In this document: positions 33,887 through 41,547 of the stretch, in pieces
Layout of the letters: every line of letters begins with the position of its first letter
Numbering within the stretch: the first letter of the stretch is position 1
Source of the DNA: Komagataeibacter sucrofermentans DSM 15973
GTDB taxonomy: Bacteria > Pseudomonadota > Alphaproteobacteria > Acetobacterales > Acetobacteraceae
Direction: 5' to 3'
Length of the DNA: 64,000 bases
NCBI RefSeq assembly: GCF_040581405.1
Contig: NZ_CP137157.1
Location: forward strand, 2,540,001 to 2,604,000
Program-made: the position numbers and the translations under genes
The notes under the pieces: model-generated
The model's input: the letters and a program-made list of their open reading frames with translations, nothing else
What the model was told of the DNA's origin: nothing
The model's database searches: none

Positions 33887-35239
33887 TTACGACCGCCCCG
33901 CAACAGGTGCCGCCTCAAGTGCCTGCAGGAAATCAGCCGCCCAGCTGATGGCCGTGGTGCTGCTGACTTCCTGCTCCAGCGCCTGCCAGCGCGTGCGCCG
34001 CTCCGCCAGCCCCATGGTCAGGGCGGCATGCAGGGCATCGGCAATCTCATCGGGATCATAGGGATTGACCAGAATGCCCTCATCCATTTCCGGCGCGGCG
34101 CCAGCAAAATGCGACAGGATCAGCACGCCCGGATTGTCCGGGTTCTGGGCGGCCACGTATTCCTTGGCCACGAGGTTCATGCCATCGCGCAGCGGCGTGA
34201 TCAGGGCGGCTTCGGACCGGCGGTAGAACCCGGCCAGCACCTCACGCGGGAGCGGACGGGTGATGTAGCGGATCGGCGTCCAGTCAAACTCGGAATAGGC
34301 GCCATTGATCCGCCCGGTCAGCTCATCAAGCTGGCGGCGCAACTGGCGGTATTCCTCCACGCTGCCGCGCGAGATGGGGGCCACCTGCAGGAACGTGACC
34401 TTGCCACGATGCTCGGGGTAGCGCGCCAGAAGCGCCTCATAGCCACGAAACCGCTCGGGCAGGCCCTTGGAATAATCCAGCCGGTCCACGCCCAGCACCA
34501 GCTTCGCGCCGCGCAGGCTGCCTTCAAGCCGCTCGACCTCCGGGCCTTCCATGCTCTTTTCAGCCTGTGCGCGGAACTCATCGGGGTCGATGCCGATGGG
34601 GAAGGCCTGGCCCCGCGCATCAAGACCATTGGCCTGAAGGGAATGGTTGAGGTTCTCGGCATCCTCTGGCGTCTGCACGCCAATCAGGTCGTAGCTCTGC
34701 ATATCCTCAAGCAGCAGGTCAGCACCGGGCAGCGAGCGCACGAGGCTCCATGGCGGGAACGGAATATGCAGGAAGAAGCCGATGCGGCACTTCACCCCAA
34801 GGTCACGCAACGCCTGCCCAAGCGGGAACAGGTGGTAGTCATGCACCCAGATCGTGTCATCAGGCTTGAGCAGGGGCAGCAGCGTGCGGGCGAACATGGC
34901 GTTGACCGCCAGATACGTCTTCCAGTCCGTGCGGGAATAGTTCATCAGCCCGACGCGGTAATGGAACAGCGGCCACAGGATGCCGTTGGAGAAATTCTGA
35001 TAGAACCCCTCATATTGCAGCGGGGTCAGGTCAATGGTGGCGTAGGTGACGTTATCAACCTTGTCGAGCCGGGGCACCGGGTCGCCGCCATGTAGCTGCA
35101 CCTGCTTGCCCGACCAGCCGAACCACAGCGATTCCCCCTCGCGCAGGGCATCTTTCAGCCCTACCGCCAGGCCGCCCGCGGGCTGGCTGCGCTCACGCGG
35201 GGAAGGCACGCGGTTGGATACGATTATCAGCCGCCCCAT
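33887..35239 (-). CDS. otsA: Trehalose-6-phosphate synthase
   Basis: 450 residues from the ATG at 35239. A glycosyltransferase family 20 enzyme joining UDP-glucose and glucose 6-phosphate. Motifs include IIVSNRVPSP at the start, AGGLAVGLKDAL, WVHDYHLFPLGQALRD, GVDRLDYSKGLPERF and the late LRDGMNLVAKEYVAAQ. The start lies inside the last codons of otsB (13-bp overlap), so the two are coupled. Trehalose protects against osmotic and ethanol/acid stress. Confidence 0.95.
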   Translation of the reverse strand: MGRLIIVSNRVPSPRERSQPAGGLAVGLKDALREGESLWFGWSGKQVQLHGGDPVPRLDKVDNVTYATIDLTPLQYEGFYQNFSNGILWPLFHYRVGLMNYSRTDWKTYLAVNAMFARTLLPLLKPDDTIWVHDYHLFPLGQALRDLGVKCRIGFFLHIPFPPWSLVRSLPGADLLLEDMQSYDLIGVQTPEDAENLNHSLQANGLDARGQAFPIGIDPDEFRAQAEKSMEGPEVERLEGSLRGAKLVLGVDRLDYSKGLPERFRGYEALLARYPEHRGKVTFLQVAPISRGSVEEYRQLRRQLDELTGRINGAYSEFDWTPIRYITRPLPREVLAGFYRRSEAALITPLRDGMNLVAKEYVAAQNPDNPGVLILSHFAGAAPEMDEGILVNPYDPDEIADALHAALTMGLAERRTRWQALEQEVSSTTAISWAADFLQALEAAPVAGRS

Positions 35240-35982
35240 GCGCCATCGCCCCCCTGCGCCAACTGGGCCAGCCATGCACGGAAAGCCGCCGGATCAGGGA
35301 AATCATTGGGAATGCGAAAACCCACGCCTCCAAGCCTGACCGCTTCACGCATGCCATCCTCATCGGTCACGTCATCACCCACGAAAATGGGCAGCCGGCC
35401 TGCAAACGGCGCGCTCTGCATCACCGCTTCGACCGCATGGCCCTTGTCGATGCCAGCGGGGCGGATTTCCCACGCCATCTTGGCGGCCTGCACATGAAAT
35501 GCGCCACTGGTGGCCTTAACCCATTCATCCGCGATCCGACCCAGAGCCGGGCCCGCATCGGGCGCGCCACGATAATGCAGCACCAGCCCCGCCTTCTTGT
35601 GTTCGATCCGCACGCCGGGGTGGGAGGCGGCCAGCTTCTCCGCCTCATCAATCCATGCCCGGGGCACTGGCGGCAGTGCCGCGCGCTCGATGGGCTGGCC
35701 CGGCGCATGACGGATGGCGATGCCATGCTCGCCCGCCACGGCATAAGGCACATCAGGCAGGAAATGGTCGATCTGCTCAATGGGGCGGCCCGAGATGACC
35801 GCGAGCGCATTGCCGCATTTATCGCGCAGGCGGCGCAGGGTATCGCGCAGGCCGGGCGCCACGACCACGGATTCGGGCGTGGGTGCGATATCCACCAGCG
35901 TGCCGTCAAAGTCCAGAAGGAAGGCCGCCCGCGCGGGAGGCGGCAGCCGATCGAGCGAAGGGAGGGAGGGTGTCTTGCTCAT
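35227..35982 (-). CDS. otsB: Trehalose-6-phosphate phosphatase
   Basis: 251 residues from the ATG at 35982 (an ATG at 36003 is possible). A HAD-superfamily phosphatase: FLLDFDGTLVDIAPTP carries the nucleophile aspartate, LAVISGRPIEQID motif II, and FVGDDVTDEDGM motif IV. It removes phosphate from trehalose 6-phosphate made by OtsA. The order otsB-otsA on one transcript is normal. Confidence 0.95.
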   Translation of the reverse strand: MSKTPSLPSLDRLPPPARAAFLLDFDGTLVDIAPTPESVVVAPGLRDTLRRLRDKCGNALAVISGRPIEQIDHFLPDVPYAVAGEHGIAIRHAPGQPIERAALPPVPRAWIDEAEKLAASHPGVRIEHKKAGLVLHYRGAPDAGPALGRIADEWVKATSGAFHVQAAKMAWEIRPAGIDKGHAVEAVMQSAPFAGRLPIFVGDDVTDEDGMREAVRLGGVGFRIPNDFPDPAAFRAWLAQLAQGGDGAWGG

Positions 35983-36077
35983 GGTAGGTCTAGCCTCTGG
36001 CAAAGCTGGATAATACGCAAGCCCACAAGCGTGCTGTCAGGGCTGCAGCATTTATACGACACAAATTAAATAATTTT

Positions 36078-36701
36078 CTAATGCAACATCAGGGGGGCTG
36101 CCCCTTCATCAGCAGGTTCGGGCGGCATGGCGGGCATCGGTGGTGAAACCGGCTGCGGCGCGGCCTGGGGCGCGATGGGCGCGGCATTCCCCCCACCCGC
36201 TTCAGGCGGTGCGGGCTGGCCATCAGGCGTGGTCATGGCGGGTGCGGTCGCCGCAGGCGCGGCGACAGTGGCGAGTGGCGGCGGAGTGGGCGCGACATTG
36301 TCACCCGCGCAACCGACAAGCTGCACATCATAAAGCGGATTCTGGAACACGCCGGTCGCGGGCTCGGCTACCGCCATCCAGCCCTGAAAGGCGGCCATGC
36401 CCTCATGCGCGTCGTGCACGTCCAGCCACGCGGCGCTATCGGCTGGCAGGGTGGCGGGGCGCTGCAGGCATGACGTGGCGCGCAGGGTCAGGCTTTTATA
36501 GGGCATGTCCTGGCCTACGGGCACGTTGAGCAGTTCGGTATGGGCATCAAGCTTGTCGAGCACGCGCACCACCGCAACCGTGCGCCCCTGCCACGTATCG
36601 GGCGGGTACATGGCAGGTGGCGACAGCCATTCGGTGGCGTGGGCAAGGCCCGGCAGGCCAGCAAGCAGCAGGGCGGGCAGGCAGCGGAGCGCGCGCCTCA
36701 T
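36078..36701 (-). CDS. DUF2155 family exported protein
   Basis: 207 residues. Signal peptide about residues 1-22 (LPALLLAGLPGLAHA). The DUF2155 core follows (RTVAVVRVLDKLDAHTELLNVPVG, then FQGWMAVAEPA and a FQNPLYDVQLVGC end). The C-terminal 70 residues are a low-complexity tail of Pro and Ala. DUF2155 proteins in alphaproteobacteria often neighbour NDUFA12, as here, and their role is unknown. It overlaps the small upstream gene by 4 nt. Confidence 0.85.
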   Translation of the reverse strand: MRRALRCLPALLLAGLPGLAHATEWLSPPAMYPPDTWQGRTVAVVRVLDKLDAHTELLNVPVGQDMPYKSLTLRATSCLQRPATLPADSAAWLDVHDAHEGMAAFQGWMAVAEPATGVFQNPLYDVQLVGCAGDNVAPTPPPLATVAAPAATAPAMTTPDGQPAPPEAGGGNAAPIAPQAAPQPVSPPMPAMPPEPADEGAAPLMLH

Positions 36702-36916
36702 GCGTGGGGGCTCCGCAGGGTGTTGATTACATCGATCAGGATCTGGCGCATGGCCGCCTCATCCACGCCCATCAGCACGGCATCCTCGAACGCATCTTGC
36801 AAGATACCCTGCACTTCCGCATGATTTTCCTGCAGGACCAGCAGTTTGTCGCGGCATGAAACCGGCGTGCCATCGCGCTGCGGCCACATGGCGGGCTGGG
36901 TGCTCCCATCACTCAT
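36698..36916 (-). CDS. Small hypothetical protein in the mlaD-DUF2155 operon
   Basis: 72 residues, acidic, mostly helical, with no membrane segment. Overlaps of 4 nt with both mlaD-like and DUF2155 genes show it is a coupled cistron and support its reality. No motif is recognised. The core around CRDKLLVLQENHAEV and AMRQILIDVINTL suggests a helical, perhaps dimerising, protein. Confidence 0.7.
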   Translation of the reverse strand: MSDGSTQPAMWPQRDGTPVSCRDKLLVLQENHAEVQGILQDAFEDAVLMGVDEAAMRQILIDVINTLRSPHA

Positions 36917-37449
36917 GGCGCGTCTCCGCCCGGCGCAGGGGGCGTGGCCTGGCTGGCCTTGTCCTGCCGGGCCTTGGTCAGCGTATCGGTTACCGAGAAA
37001 ATGAATTTGCTGAGCAGTTGCTCAAGGCTGATCGCGCCCTGGGTCTCGCCAATCGTGCCACCGGGGGCGAGCATCTTGTCATCGCCGCCGGGCGAGAGGG
37101 CGATGTATTTGCCGCCAAGCAGGCTGTCGCTGGTAATGATGGCCGCCGTATCATCAGGCAGCCTGATGTCGGGGCGCACGGTAAAGGTGACCTGTGCGGC
37201 ATAGGTTTTGGGGTCGACGCGCTCATCGACCACCTGCCCCACCGTAATGCCCGCAAGCCTGACATCCGACCCGATGGACAGGCCATCAATATGGGCGAAC
37301 CCGGCATTGAGCCGGTAGCCGGTTTCATGCGGACGGCCCTTGTCGAGCACGGCATAGGCCAGCAGCCCCGCAAGCCCTGCAAGCACGGCAAACCCGGCAA
37401 GAAGTTCCGCTGGCTGACGGCCCGCGCGCCCTGAAACAGCAGCAACCAT
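36913..37449 (-). CDS. MlaD-type MCE-domain protein
   Basis: 178 residues from the ATG at 37449. One N-terminal membrane helix (LLAGFAVLAGLAGLLAYAVLD) precedes an MCE domain (about 38-118: YRLNAGFAHIDGLSIGSDVRLAGITVGQV, then DSLLGGKYIALSPGG). MlaD is the substrate-binding part of the Mla phospholipid transporter that keeps outer-membrane lipid asymmetry. No mlaE/mlaF genes are adjacent, so the ATPase and permease must lie elsewhere. Confidence 0.87.
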   Translation of the reverse strand: MVAAVSGRAGRQPAELLAGFAVLAGLAGLLAYAVLDKGRPHETGYRLNAGFAHIDGLSIGSDVRLAGITVGQVVDERVDPKTYAAQVTFTVRPDIRLPDDTAAIITSDSLLGGKYIALSPGGDDKMLAPGGTIGETQGAISLEQLLSKFIFSVTDTLTKARQDKASQATPPAPGGDAP

Positions 37450-37508
37450 GGTGGCAAAGCTTCCCCAATATCCAATGGCGCACACCCTAGCAGGTTACGC
37501 CACGGGTT

Positions 37509-37877
37509 TCATCCCTCGGGGTACCATGCCTCATAATCACTGGTGGTTGAAGCCCGCTGGCCACCCCGGCAGTCGCTGCCGGGCGGATGATAGGCCCCCA
37601 CTGTTCCGGTCTGGTTGGGCTGCCAGGGCTGCTGCCACGGCTGGCGCGCGCTTTCGGGCAGGGGGGCGGCCTCCATGTGGTGCAGCCAGCCCCACCATTC
37701 GGACGGCACGGCGGATGCGTCCTCGCCCTTATGATAGATGACCCAGCGCTCGTGGCGCTTTTCCCCGCCGCCGGTGCGGTTGGGGGTGCGGGCCTCATAA
37801 TAACAGCGGCCATCGGCATCCTTGCCGACCAGCCGCCCCCTGAAGCGGGTATAGATACGGGTGCCTAGATTTGCCAT
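37509..37877 (-). CDS. NDUFA12 family complex I accessory subunit
   Basis: 122 residues. The B17.2/NDUFA12 pattern is seen in GTRIYTRFRGRLVGKDADGRCYYEAR, RHERWVIYHKGEDASAVPSEWWGWLHHM and the ending TTSDYEAWYPEG. This is the alphaproteobacterial supernumerary subunit of NADH:quinone oxidoreductase. It precedes the mlaD-like/DUF2155 genes on the same strand, the usual alphaproteobacterial neighbourhood. Confidence 0.93.
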   Translation of the reverse strand: MANLGTRIYTRFRGRLVGKDADGRCYYEARTPNRTGGGEKRHERWVIYHKGEDASAVPSEWWGWLHHMEAAPLPESARQPWQQPWQPNQTGTVGAYHPPGSDCRGGQRASTTSDYEAWYPEG

Positions 37878-38208
37878 GCCGCAAGCCTAATCCGCCAGCA
37901 ACCGTATGGTCCACGCGCATCTGCGCGCGCGCCCGTCACATCTGCGGGATCAGCGTGGAGAGGATCAGCGCAGGGAGTGCATTGCGGCTGCCAGCACTTT
38001 CAGGGACGCCGCCTTTTTGAAAACGGCGGCCACCCGGCAACCCTTATTGGCAAGGCGCACGGAGCACCCGCCTCACGGCGCGGTGATGAGGGTGGATGCG
38101 CCTTGTGCACAGTTATCCCCCATATCCACTGTATTCAGGGGCATGTATAGTTGCGACTCCGTTGTAAGCGGGTTCCGCTGGTGTGCGACCGACCGGTAAA
38201 CAGGAAGC
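37878..38208. other. 331-bp intergenic region between NDUFA12 and the NrdJ-like gene
   Basis: Divergent promoter region. It contains a half copy of the dispersed repeat (37996-38030) and, near 38107-38120, TGCACAGTTATCCCC, which resembles a DnaA box but is not one exactly. No gene or RNA is seen. Confidence 0.55.
37996..38030 (+). repeat. Dispersed three-stem repeat, hairpin 1 only
   Basis: ACTTTCAGGGA followed by hairpin 1 with arms GCCGCC / GGCGGC around TTTTTGAAAAC. The second hairpin and right arm are absent. Confidence 0.55.
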
Positions 38209-39804
38209 ATGACAGCACGAAGCCACTGGAACGGCGTGCGTATGCGTACCGTTGAAGCCGCAGCGGACCCAGACGACGCGCCGCGTTCCGTAACCCTGCC
38301 CGCCGACTGGGATGACACGGCAGCCGAGGCCGTGGCCCGGCTGGCCCCCGGTCATGGCCCCGCCAACCTGCCCGAACTCGCGGCGCGATGGATCGATGAC
38401 CTGTGCGCGGGCGAGGTGTCCGGCCCGGTCATTGGCCCGGTCGCGCGTGCGCTGTCGTGCCTGCTGCTCATGCGCCAGGCCGCGCCCACCGAAAGCCTGT
38501 GGCATGGCCACCATGACCGCAGGCCCGCCTTCGTGATCAACCTCGCCGCCTTTGTCGAGGCCGATAACAGCTTCATGGCGCGCGACTTCGTAGCCGCCCT
38601 GCGCCTGCTTGCCCGCGTGCTGCGCACCCTTGCGCACCAGAAGCTGCACATGCGCAATGGCGAACTGCCCCTGCCCGAGCCCGCGGGCGGGCCGGTGGCC
38701 CACCTGCGCGCCGTGGCCCCGCCCACTGCCAGCGAAAGCCATGAACGCCCCCCCGTTGCGGGGGCGCTGCTGCTGACCAACCTCGATGCGTGTCTGGCCG
38801 GGCTGGGGCTCGATTATGACAGTGAGGCCGGGCGCGACGCGGCGTGCAGCATCGTGGCGCTGGCCACCCTTGTAGCCCATGCGGGCGAAGGGGCGGACGC
38901 CATGCCGCTGCCCCCCGTGCGCAGCATCCTGCCCGGCGTGAGCCAGATCGCGCGCAGCGTGTGGCAGGAAGCGGCGGTCGAGACCGACCAGCCCGCCGCC
39001 CGTGTCGAGACCGGCTTTTCAACCCCTGGCCCCATCGATGCGCTGCTGGGCGTGGAAGCGTGCGGACTGGCCCCCGTCTTTTCCCCGCTGCGCGCTGACG
39101 GGCGGCTGGCCATGAGCACGCTGGCCCGCCTGGCCAGCCGGGGCCTGACGCTGGAGGCCGCCTTTGCCGCAACCCTGGCGGGCGAGAGCGTGCTGCCCCT
39201 GCCGGGTGCGGTATCGCATCAGGCCATGCACCGTGCGCTCAGTGGCTTTGTGGACCGCGTGCCCGCACGCCCTGACGCCACGCGCGACACGCTGGCCACC
39301 CGCGCGGGGCTGGAGCGCGGCGTGCGCCGCCACCTGCCCGCCCGCCATGGCGGCTTTACGCAGAAGACCCGCATCGGCGGCCACCGCCTGTTCCTGCGCA
39401 CGGGGGAATATGCCGATGGCTCGCTGGGCGAGATCAGCCTGACCCCCACGCGTGAAAGCCCCATGGTGCGCGGCCTGATGGACACGCTGGGCCAGGCCGT
39501 GAGCATTGGCCTGCAATACGGCGCGCCGCTGGAAAGCTACGTGGAGGCCTTTGCCTACACACAGTTCGGCCCCGCCGGCACGGTAGAGGGCGACCCGGTT
39601 GCATCCTACGCCACATCCATGCTCGACTACGCCTTCCGTGCCCTGTCAGATGCCTATCTGGGCCGCAGGCTACCCGATGCCCCGCATGAGGACGCACTGG
39701 CCGAAAGCCCCGCCCCCATGCTGCCGCTCGACCTGCCCGGCTCCGGCAATGACGATGGCGATGACACGCCCCCCCGGCGGCGCGGGCTGCGGCTGGTCGG
39801 ATAA
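38209..39804 (+). CDS. NrdJ-like protein without catalytic core (TSCPD-type C-terminus)
   Basis: 531 residues. The C-terminal 130 residues match the end of vitamin B12-dependent ribonucleotide reductase: GGFTQKTRIGGHRLFLRTGEYADGSLGEI, then SIGLQYGAPLESYVEAFAYTQFGPAG and a SMLDYAFRALSDAYLGR ending. Parts of the N-terminal half (LPADWDDTAAEAVARLA, LTNLDACLAGLGLDYDSEAGR) also resemble NrdJ. The catalytic barrel with its active cysteines is missing: only isolated cysteines occur. It is therefore unlikely to reduce ribonucleotides. Role unknown; a nucleotide-binding regulator is possible. RidA follows 43 bp downstream. Confidence 0.75.
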   Translation: MTARSHWNGVRMRTVEAAADPDDAPRSVTLPADWDDTAAEAVARLAPGHGPANLPELAARWIDDLCAGEVSGPVIGPVARALSCLLLMRQAAPTESLWHGHHDRRPAFVINLAAFVEADNSFMARDFVAALRLLARVLRTLAHQKLHMRNGELPLPEPAGGPVAHLRAVAPPTASESHERPPVAGALLLTNLDACLAGLGLDYDSEAGRDAACSIVALATLVAHAGEGADAMPLPPVRSILPGVSQIARSVWQEAAVETDQPAARVETGFSTPGPIDALLGVEACGLAPVFSPLRADGRLAMSTLARLASRGLTLEAAFAATLAGESVLPLPGAVSHQAMHRALSGFVDRVPARPDATRDTLATRAGLERGVRRHLPARHGGFTQKTRIGGHRLFLRTGEYADGSLGEISLTPTRESPMVRGLMDTLGQAVSIGLQYGAPLESYVEAFAYTQFGPAGTVEGDPVASYATSMLDYAFRALSDAYLGRRLPDAPHEDALAESPAPMLPLDLPGSGNDDGDDTPPRRRGLRLVG

Positions 39805-39847
39805 CCCGGCGCAGCACCCCGCCGCCTGAATGTAAGGATTGTTGCCC

Positions 39848-40315
39848 ATGCCCGATACAACACCCGAACAGCGCCTCAGGCAGCTTGGCATCGTGCTGCC
39901 CACGCCTGCAACGCCCGTGGCCAATTACGTGGGCACCGTCATCAGCGGCTCCTCGCTGGTGGTGTCCGGCCAGTTGCCGCTGGTTGATGGCAAGCTGCTG
40001 ACCACCGGCAAGCTCGGCGGCACCGTGGCGGTGGAACTGGCGGTGGAAGCCGCACGCTACAGCATGATCAACGTGATCGCGCAGGTTAAGGCCGCCCTTG
40101 GCGACCTCTCGCGCGTCAAGCGCGTGGTGCGGCTGGGCGGGTTCATTGCCTGCACGCCCGACTTCACGCAGCATGCCGCTGTCATGAACGGGGCCTCCGA
40201 CCTGGCGGTGGCCGTGTTTGGTGATGCAGGCCGCCATGCGCGCTCGACCGTGGGCGTGCCCTCGCTGCCGCTCGACTCCGCTGTCGAGGTCGAGGGCCTG
40301 TTCGAAATCGGCTGA
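39848..40315 (+). CDS. RidA family protein (second copy)
   Basis: 155 residues; AAGGA stands 9 nt before the ATG at 39848. This is the longer RidA subgroup with a LRQLGIVLPTPATPVANY opening, SGQLPLVDG, and a late VGVPSLPLDSAVEVEGLFEI. It differs clearly from the RidA at 3313, so they are separate subfamilies rather than a recent duplication. Its general role is clearing reactive enamines. It is probably co-transcribed with the NrdJ-like gene. Confidence 0.9.
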   Translation: MPDTTPEQRLRQLGIVLPTPATPVANYVGTVISGSSLVVSGQLPLVDGKLLTTGKLGGTVAVELAVEAARYSMINVIAQVKAALGDLSRVKRVVRLGGFIACTPDFTQHAAVMNGASDLAVAVFGDAGRHARSTVGVPSLPLDSAVEVEGLFEIG

Positions 40316-40348: not shown

Positions 40349-40396
40349 ATGACCGCACCGCCCCGCACAGCCTGCACCAAGGCGCAGGCGTCATGA
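40349..40396 (+). CDS. Possible short leader ORF ahead of the GNAT gene
   Basis: An ATG after AAGGGAG opens a 15-codon frame whose TGA overlaps the GNAT start codon (ATGA). This spacing suggests coupled reinitiation. It could also mean the GNAT gene start is chosen wrongly; no peptide homology can be judged. Confidence 0.3.
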   Translation: MTAPPRTACTKAQAS

Positions 40397-41547
40397 CCGG
40401 CACCACCATGACCCTGCACCGCCGGATTGCCGAAATCCCGGCGGCGCAGTGGGATGGCTGCGCGGGCGATGAAAACCCGTTTGTCAGCCACGCCTTCCTC
40501 TCCGCTCTTGAAGACAGCGGCTCCACCGGCCCCCAGACCGGCTGGATGCCCCAGCACCTCGCCCTGCGCGATGGTGAAGGCCGCCTGCTGGCAGTCGCCC
40601 CGCTTTACGCCAAGGGCCATTCCTTTGGTGAATACGTGTTCGACCACGCCTGGGCCCGCGCCTTTGAGCAGACGGGCGGGCAGTATTACCCCAAATTGCA
40701 GGTGGCCGTGCCGTTCTCGCCCGTGCCGGGGCCGCGCCTGCTCGTTCACCCCACCGCGCCTGATGCCGACAGCCTGCGCCTGCTGGCGGGCCGCGCGCTG
40801 CGACAGGCCTGTGGGGAGATGGGGCTTTCCTCCGTGCATGTCACTTTCTGCACCACGCATGAATATGAACTGCTGGGCGAAGGCGGCTGGCTGCAGCGCC
40901 TTGGCGTGCAGTATCACTGGGATAATCAGGACTACACCAGCTTTGACGATTTTCTGGGCATGCTCGCCTCACGCAAGCGCAAGGCCATAAGGCGCGAGCG
41001 GCGTGACGCCAATGCCTGCGGGCTGAGCTTCCATACCTATCGCGGCGCAGAGATTACCGAGGCGCTGTGGCAGGATTTCCATCACTTTTACCTTTCCACC
41101 GTAGATCGCAAATGGGGCAGCGCCTATCTGCAACCTGCCTTCTTCCCGCTGCTGTCCGAACGGCTGGGCGACAAAGTCGTGCTGATGATTGCCAGGCAGG
41201 ACGGCGTGCCGGTGGCGGGCGCGCTCAACCTGATGGGGCGCGATACGCTGTATGGCCGCAACTGGGGGCGGCGCGATGGCGACTGGCCGTTCCTGCACTT
41301 CGAGCTGTGCTATTACCGCGCCATCGACTTCGCCATCGCCCACGGGCTGAAACGGGTGGAGGCAGGCGCACAGGGCGAGCACAAGCTGCAACGTGGCTAC
41401 CGCCCGTGCCTGACCCATTCCGCCCACTGGATCAGCCACCCCGGCCTGCGCGAGGCCGTGGCCGAATTCCTGCAACACGAGCGCGCGGCCATACGGGCCG
41501 AACTCCCTGCCCTCGATTCCATGACCCCTTACCGCGCGGAGGAATAG
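40393..41547 (+). CDS. FemAB-like GNAT acyltransferase (DUF482)
   Basis: 384 residues. The family pattern of PF04339 is seen: AAQWDGCAGDENPFVSHAFLSALEDS, FDHAWARAFEQTGGQYYPKLQVAVPF, LGMLASRKRKAIRRERR and the final LKRVEAGAQGEHKLQRGY. Such proteins are related to FemAB peptidyl transferases and to N-acyltransferases; substrate unknown. It follows the NrdJ-like/RidA pair on the same strand. Confidence 0.85.
   Translation: MTGTTMTLHRRIAEIPAAQWDGCAGDENPFVSHAFLSALEDSGSTGPQTGWMPQHLALRDGEGRLLAVAPLYAKGHSFGEYVFDHAWARAFEQTGGQYYPKLQVAVPFSPVPGPRLLVHPTAPDADSLRLLAGRALRQACGEMGLSSVHVTFCTTHEYELLGEGGWLQRLGVQYHWDNQDYTSFDDFLGMLASRKRKAIRRERRDANACGLSFHTYRGAEITEALWQDFHHFYLSTVDRKWGSAYLQPAFFPLLSERLGDKVVLMIARQDGVPVAGALNLMGRDTLYGRNWGRRDGDWPFLHFELCYYRAIDFAIAHGLKRVEAGAQGEHKLQRGYRPCLTHSAHWISHPGLREAVAEFLQHERAAIRAELPALDSMTPYRAEE

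Follow-up and report, generated by a model that had tools for sequence, protein, structure and literature searches.

A relic of the class II ribonucleotide reductase NrdJ, without its catalytic cysteines, is conserved at the former nrdJ locus of Acetobacteraceae

Background

Ribonucleotide reductases (RNRs) are treated as pure enzymes, and their genes come and go by class swapping. The betaherpesvirus proteins UL45 and M45 derive from a class I RNR. They are described as enzymatically inactive homologues of the RNR large subunit that act in host signalling (PMC5469499). As for the class II RNRs, the cysteine-rich tail of NrdJ is described as mediating turnover (PMC5704485), and the tails of these enzymes are reported to contain an IscU-like domain, which was proposed to serve oligomerisation (PMC9669993). 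The class II RNR of Pseudomonas aeruginosa is described as a split enzyme, in which NrdJb (229 aa) is the redox subunit and is encoded together with NrdJa (PMC4520616). The NCBIfam model PRK06948 (604 aa) is named "ribonucleotide reductase-like protein", and we found no described function for it. Among the matches listed in the open-licence literature, no description of a bacterial family of dead NrdJ proteins was found.

In the present study, we analyzed a stretch of 64,000 nucleotides from Komagataeibacter sucrofermentans DSM 15973 (hereafter, the window), which contains a gene related to nrdJ. By the 97-98% protein identity of loci from named relatives, the source of the window is close to K. 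xylinus and K. nataicola. Our comparisons show that this gene, here called the relic, is a former nrdJ that has shrunk in place, has no residues for reduction, and is under purifying selection across Acetobacteraceae. The features of the locus are as follows (positions in the window).

36078..36701, minus strand: DUF2155 gene (PF09923), marker of the same locus
36913..37485, minus strand: MlaD gene (PF02470), marker of the same locus
37509..37877, minus strand: NDUFA12 gene (PF05071), neighbour on the divergent side and marker of the ancestral nrdJ locus
38126..38141, plus strand: NrdR-box-like palindrome CCACTGTATTCAGGGG; the second box is poor in this species
38209..39804, plus strand: gutted NrdJ gene, 531 aa plus stop (TSCPD and PRK07562 matches, profile alignment to NrdJ)
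38209..38538, plus strand: residues 1-110, N-terminal part, homologous to NrdJ ~12-158 (hhalign against shuffles; fold match from residue 4)
38539..39090, plus strand: residues 111-294, kept part of the barrel (NrdJ ~493-698) with a variable linker at 151-183, without catalytic cysteines
39214..39255, plus strand: residues 336-349, barrel-end remnant SHQAMHRALSGFVD, aligned to the SHIRMMAA.QPFISG region of NrdJ (profile alignment)
39334..39684, plus strand: residues 376-492, TSCPD / IscU-like domain (Pfam, NCBIfam, AF2 pLDDT 84.7)
39685..39801, plus strand: residues 493-531, low-confidence tail with P.LPL..P and basic LRLV ends, without cysteine
39839..40315, plus strand: Rid-family (YjgF) gene (PF14588), directly downstream and possibly in the same operon; present in 13 of 18 family loci
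40393..41547, plus strand: FemAB-like gene (PF04339), next after Rid; present in 13 of 18 family loci

Results and Discussion

Parts of NrdJ retained in the relic

The reading frame encodes 531 aa, in line with the length of about 530 residues given in the original prediction, which was made from the DNA letters. Residues 385-483 match the TSCPD domain (PF12637; E 1.3e-8, above the Pfam cut-off), and residues 372-487 match positions 968-1083 of PRK07562, the NCBIfam model of alphaproteobacterial NrdJ, with an E value of 1.6e-41; the latter match covers only about one tenth of the model and is far below the full-length cut-off. Thus, the relic carries the TSCPD domain of alphaproteobacterial NrdJ, and the proposed resemblance of its C-terminal 130 residues or so to the end of a class II RNR holds. 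Compared with 80 intact NrdJ sequences, the TSCPD domain of the relic has two nearly fixed differences, G for E at 454 and D for N at 462. A search of the window genome found no other TSCPD domain, and no solved close homologue of the window protein was found by sequence at E<=1. The possibility of a defence or phage protein was considered and rejected, since the window protein had no match in PADLOC or PHROGs.

In an automatic alignment against the NrdJ profile, no part of the A-form relic other than TSCPD was placed, and the homology of its N-terminal and barrel parts therefore rests on family-profile, profile-profile, hhalign and fold alignments. When the profile of 46 family members was compared with two intact NrdJs, two collinear blocks were found: family positions 118-283 correspond to NrdJ 493-698 (54-57 bits), and 335/340-476/478 correspond to NrdJ ~938-1083 (195-197 bits). 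For the main block, the comparison of profile with profile gave an E value of 1.4e-61. The N-terminal 107 columns were aligned by hhalign to NrdJ 12-158, at a collinear position, with E 2.6e-4 and a probability of only 42%; the score of this alignment was 36.3, and 100 column shuffles gave a mean of 14.2, an SD of 2.7 and a maximum of 24.8. Together with the block at 118-283, this N-terminal match above the shuffles agrees with the earlier claim that parts of the N-terminal half are NrdJ-like.

Missing from the relic are NrdJ ~160-490, most of 700-860, and all of the sequence beyond ~1085. In RNRs, the region at ~160-490 carries the specificity site, together with a large share of the active site. 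Part of the barrel, including its most conserved helices, is kept and constrained, and the relic might therefore be considered a nucleotide or cobalamin sensor using a binding site left from NrdJ; however, with the region at ~160-490 gone, we regard this as very unlikely.

The window protein has five cysteines (residues 66, 84, 195, 213 and 285), none of which is catalytic. Cys195 and Cys285 are invariant in 48 acetic acid bacteria, and in the wider family they are found in 24 and 30 of 46 members, respectively. In the profile alignments, the cysteine stretch of NrdJ with HACF and NPCSE has no counterpart in the relic, and the cysteine of ACNLAS is replaced (VINLAAF in the relic, CNLASLNLLAF in NrdJ). 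Thus, neither the thiyl-radical cysteine of NPCSE nor the HACF/ACNLAS redox cysteine pair of class II RNRs is present, and the active-site cysteines are absent, as had been predicted. No C-terminal zinc finger or cysteine pair was found, residue 285 being the last cysteine; because the tail at 493-531 has no cysteine, the zinc finger of NrdJ is gone. Judging from these residues, the relic apparently cannot reduce ribonucleotides by the known mechanism. The original prediction that the ends of NrdJ were kept and its catalytic core lost is correct for the loss of the cysteine core, but more than the ends is kept, as the second half of the barrel is retained too.

Predicted structure

The AF2 model of the window protein (pLDDT 74.9, pTM 0.63) is closest to the Rhodobacter sphaeroides RNR 7b9p (Z 24.6, 329 residues, rmsd 3.4), with residues 4-363 of the model aligned on 12-913 of the 7b9p chain. 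With Foldseek, the best E value was 2.5e-5 and the TM scores were only 0.26-0.31; large parts of the enzyme are missing from the model, and such low scores are expected of a gutted barrel. The structure comparison that had been recommended thus gave a match to an RNR, and the outcome was neither an intact barrel nor a lack of relation to NrdJ. An NrdJ-like protein with a lost catalytic core is therefore backed by sequence, profile and predicted structure.

For the TSCPD domain alone (pLDDT 84.7), the best fold matches were IscU/SufU, with a moderate Z of up to 6.7, which is below 8, the level where the caution of the structure-search tool eases. These matches agree with the IscU-like domain described in class II tails (PMC9669993). 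The cluster-binding cysteines of an IscU-like Fe-S scaffold are not found in the relic, in which residues 376-492 contain no cysteine.

Comparison with known systems

The relic resembles NrdJ (PRK07562; R. sphaeroides 7b9p) in homology along its length, in its locus, in the TSCPD domain, in the RNR-like predicted fold of residues 4-363, and, in many members of the relic family, in NrdR-box-like promoter sites. It differs from NrdJ in its size (531 against ~1,200 residues) and in the absence of the catalytic cysteines and the cysteine-rich tail. Like NrdJb as it is described (PMC9669993), the relic is a separate protein with the TSCPD/IscU-like part of NrdJ; unlike NrdJb, it has no redox tail and carries N-terminal and barrel parts. 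Identity with the NrdJb of a split RNR was rejected, because no NrdJa was found in the window genome and the relic has no redox cysteines. In UL45/M45, as they are described, an RNR large subunit was likewise kept after catalysis was lost and put to other use, whereas these proteins are viral, and the likeness is drawn from their description, without sequence comparison. RNR large subunits that lost catalysis and took up other tasks are thus known from betaherpesviruses, and the relic may be a bacterial RNR pseudoenzyme. PRK06948 was matched by five of the six longer dead NrdJs scanned (see below), whereas the window protein had no match to it at E<=1.

Conservation and selection

A match to the relic was found in 195 of 200 Acetobacteraceae genomes with the family profile, although such a match alone is no proof of a full-length relic, and in 138 of 150 with a single sequence. 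Of the five genomes missed by the profile, four belong to a single genus and the fifth is small. In all 10 species pairs analyzed, the dN/dS of the relic was 0.05-0.16 (some dS values in this analysis are above 1), which is within the range of the neighbours Rid, NDUFA12, MlaD and FemAB-like (31 of 40 comparisons possible). In five pairs, the most constrained parts were residues 184-345 (dN/dS 0.04-0.13) and TSCPD (0.03-0.13). Given the low dN/dS and the profile matches in nearly all genomes, the relic is evidently no pseudogene.

Among the matches listed, the gene is interrupted or split in two Acetobacteraceae genomes, G126 and G136, and in G136 it lies in several pieces.

A neutral remnant in slow decay could account for the loss of large parts of NrdJ, for losses that differ by lineage, for the absence of the gene in one genus, and for the two genomes with interrupted copies among the matches listed. 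However, the dN/dS values, the single open frame across the match in 78 of 80 fetched loci, and the strongly conserved columns of the relic in the family alignments make this explanation extremely improbable. On the other hand, the relic is dispensable, since five genomes lack the gene and 54 of 125 genomes of the class that have this NrdA have no match to the family profile, which may miss forms without TSCPD.

The ancestral locus

At 16 of 18 Acetobacteraceae loci, the relic and NDUFA12 lie side by side in divergent orientation, and MlaD and DUF2155 lie behind NDUFA12 in most. For the nrdJ-like loci of other alphaproteobacteria, the first 20 fetched include 16 with NDUFA12 within ~2.1 kb on the divergent side; two of these 20 loci are catalytically dead, which leaves NDUFA12 beside 15 of the 18 nrdJ genes that are intact. 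Among the matches listed from a class-wide sample of 289 genomes, those outside Acetobacteraceae are almost all NrdJ frames of ~1,200 residues. The presence of NDUFA12 beside both the relic and intact nrdJ shows that nrdJ was gutted in place. A trehalose-phosphatase gene (35227-36003) lies behind DUF2155 in the window and was found at the same locus in 6 of 18 loci of relatives.

Five genomes (g46/g97; L197-L201) have a divergent relic at the same locus, the fifth of which ends at a contig end. The four complete relics have no TSCPD and keep more of the barrel; thus, TSCPD cannot be the whole function of the relic.

Dead NrdJs outside Acetobacteraceae

Eight dead NrdJs without the NPCSE and HACF cysteines were found in eight genomes of six other alphaproteobacterial families: L079 (912 aa), L087 (~1,200 aa), L202 (807), L203 (730), L204 (707), L205 (996), L206 (963) and L207 (947). 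Seven of the eight are beside NDUFA12, and the ACNLAS cysteine is still present in L205. Since L202-L207 were selected out of 24 matches that were weak or otherwise unusual, no frequency can be read from them. The same NrdA type is present in six of the eight genomes, and another RNR in one. In genome G366 (L204; listed as 99% complete), the dead NrdJ was the only RNR-like protein found.

We also checked 80 NrdJ-like loci outside Acetobacteraceae, chosen among the matches listed (50 from genomes with this NrdA and 30 from genomes without it). Intact NrdJ with NPCSE was found in 78 of them; the two dead ones are both in NrdA genomes. The neighbour-gene tree placed Acetobacteraceae in a single clade (support 100) and requires five switches between the intact and the dead state; in this count, Acetobacteraceae is one dead group, though four of its rows (g62) are without the gene, and L079 is left out. 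Well-supported branches alone require at least two changes for the dead NrdJs outside Acetobacteraceae. In the dead pair L206/L207, dN/dS was 0.156, against 0.06 for NDUFA12 and 0.01 for MlaD, and the dead NrdJ is thus less constrained than its neighbours.

One tentative explanation, to which we give appreciable weight but clearly less than an even chance, is that alphaproteobacterial NrdJ has a non-catalytic second function, which would keep the protein once a class I RNR catalyses, and that several lineages independently inactivated nrdJ in place. These lineages would be Acetobacteraceae and four more in the best neighbour-gene tree, at least two being forced by well-supported branches, and several of them have NrdR-box-like sites.

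NrdR-box-like sites upstream of the relic

In three of the four bacteria studied, NrdR sites are described as a pair of 16-bp boxes with 15-16 bp between them (PMC12051234). Upstream of the relic in the window, there is one fair box with a poor second box, and the P value of the pair is 0.01 (dinucleotide shuffles). A scan for single NrdR boxes was ambiguous, and a paired-box test was used instead, with the upstream regions of four other genes of the same loci as controls. At P<=0.01, box pairs were found in 16 of 20 diverse Acetobacteraceae loci and in 1 of 68 controls, and mononucleotide and dinucleotide shuffles agree in these counts. The pair is located 80-84 bp before the start in 13 of the 16 loci, and is best at -101 or -111 in the other three. 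When spacings of 18-49 were scanned in all 20 loci, the fewest mismatches were observed at 32 bp, which corresponds to the spacer of 15-16 bp described for NrdR (PMC12051234). In an earlier scan, which was partly circular because its 16 loci had been preselected for spacings of 30-33, the second-best box was at +31-32 bp in 12 of 16.

The distribution of the pairs among genera is uneven. They were found in 10 of 10 Gluconacetobacter, 2 of 3 Novacetimonas, and 2 of 13 Komagataeibacter (1 of 13 with dinucleotide shuffles); at P<=0.01, none was found in Acetobacter (0 of 24), Asaia and relatives (0 of 9), Gluconobacter (0 of 10), or Commensalibacter/Saccharibacter (0 of 5). In the window genome, the upstream region of nrdA has a box pair, and that of nrdB has none. 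Among the dead NrdJs elsewhere, a clear pair was found at L204 and L207, the others having none or a borderline one. In L038, L039, L043-L045 and other loci, the first NrdR-like box overlaps TATCCACA/TTATCCACA, a sequence that we take to resemble a DnaA box.

The promoter of the relic could be simply inherited from nrdJ. The presence of NrdR-box-like sites upstream of the gene in many relatives favours a link to dNTP supply. Alternatively, the relic may have taken on a task that has nothing to do with dNTPs, such as that of a scaffold with the Rid and FemAB-like proteins encoded downstream. The genes for these proteins follow the relic in 13 of 18 family loci and also lie beside dead L079 and L205, and NrdR-like boxes were not detected in several genera. 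However, most deep lineages retain the boxes, no Rid/FemAB-like genes were seen close to the remaining dead NrdJs that were fetched, and a Rid gene is near three intact nrdJ genes (L082, L083 and L092) too, so that the gene order may simply be old. We therefore consider such recruitment unlikely.

Relation to other RNRs

The window genome encodes a class I NrdA (643 aa) and one NrdB elsewhere. A full NrdJ was sought in this genome, as the original prediction had advised, and none was found; NrdA was the single RNR barrel protein. At E<=0.01, this NrdA matched only PF00317 and PF02867, and no ATP-cone, the usual on/off switch of RNR, was present. An RNR barrel match was found in 145 of 150 family genomes, and among the matches listed most are NrdA-like, with ~620-700 residues.

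Given an NrdA without an ATP-cone, the relic could be a regulatory pseudo-subunit that binds class I NrdA (or NrdA-NrdB) and tunes the RNR. The mostly NrdA-like barrel matches of the family genomes, and the same NrdA type in six of the eight genomes with dead NrdJs elsewhere, would be consistent with this. However, two genomes (g54; G053 and G130, 97% and 99% complete; L034-L037) have the relic together with an intact NrdJ, whose catalytic motifs are intact and which is their sole RNR, no NrdA or NrdB match being found in them. As to the origin of this NrdJ, the rows nearest to it are f80/f51/f145, with support of only 85 or less. Conversely, the four g62 genomes have NrdA, NrdB and the NDUFA12-MlaD-DUF2155 locus, but no relic. 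Mimicry of the NrdB tail was also considered; when the conserved tail of the relic was compared by eye with NrdB C-termini among the matches listed, no resemblance was seen, and this idea was rejected. The difference between the relic tail and the NrdB tails examined likewise counts against a pseudo-subunit, which we hold to be improbable. The relic is not tied to one RNR class. Of the roles first suggested for it, namely nucleotide sensor, decoy subunit or uncharacterised enzyme, a decoy that serves a single class is hard to reconcile with members that have NrdJ only and with class I genomes from which the gene is absent.

Possible function of the relic

The relic probably has a second job besides ribonucleotide reduction. 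Our preferred explanation, which we put at only a little short of an even chance, is a non-catalytic role in dNTP supply or replication, either present in NrdJ already or derived from it. Class I NrdAB would have taken over ribonucleotide reduction, while a second, non-catalytic property, original to NrdJ or developed from it, would have been retained. The relic may act by protein contacts, with the half-barrel as its body and the cysteine-free IscU-like domain as an oligomerisation or docking part. Expression of the relic in most of the deep lineages would follow the release of its promoter by NrdR at times of dNTP shortage. Its role might then be to adjust dNTP supply or the way in which this supply is coupled to replication. 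The strongest argument for such a role is the retention of the protein in separate lineages that have lost its chemistry. The strongest arguments against it are that the relic is dispensable in some genomes and that the boxes are missing in several genera, most Komagataeibacter included.

Conclusion

A selected, family-wide dead RNR remains at the old nrdJ locus and has parallels in six other families, which suggests that the RNR large subunit does more than chemistry. A hidden function of NrdJ would be directly testable in the easily grown acetic acid bacteria, in which it may already be separate from catalysis.
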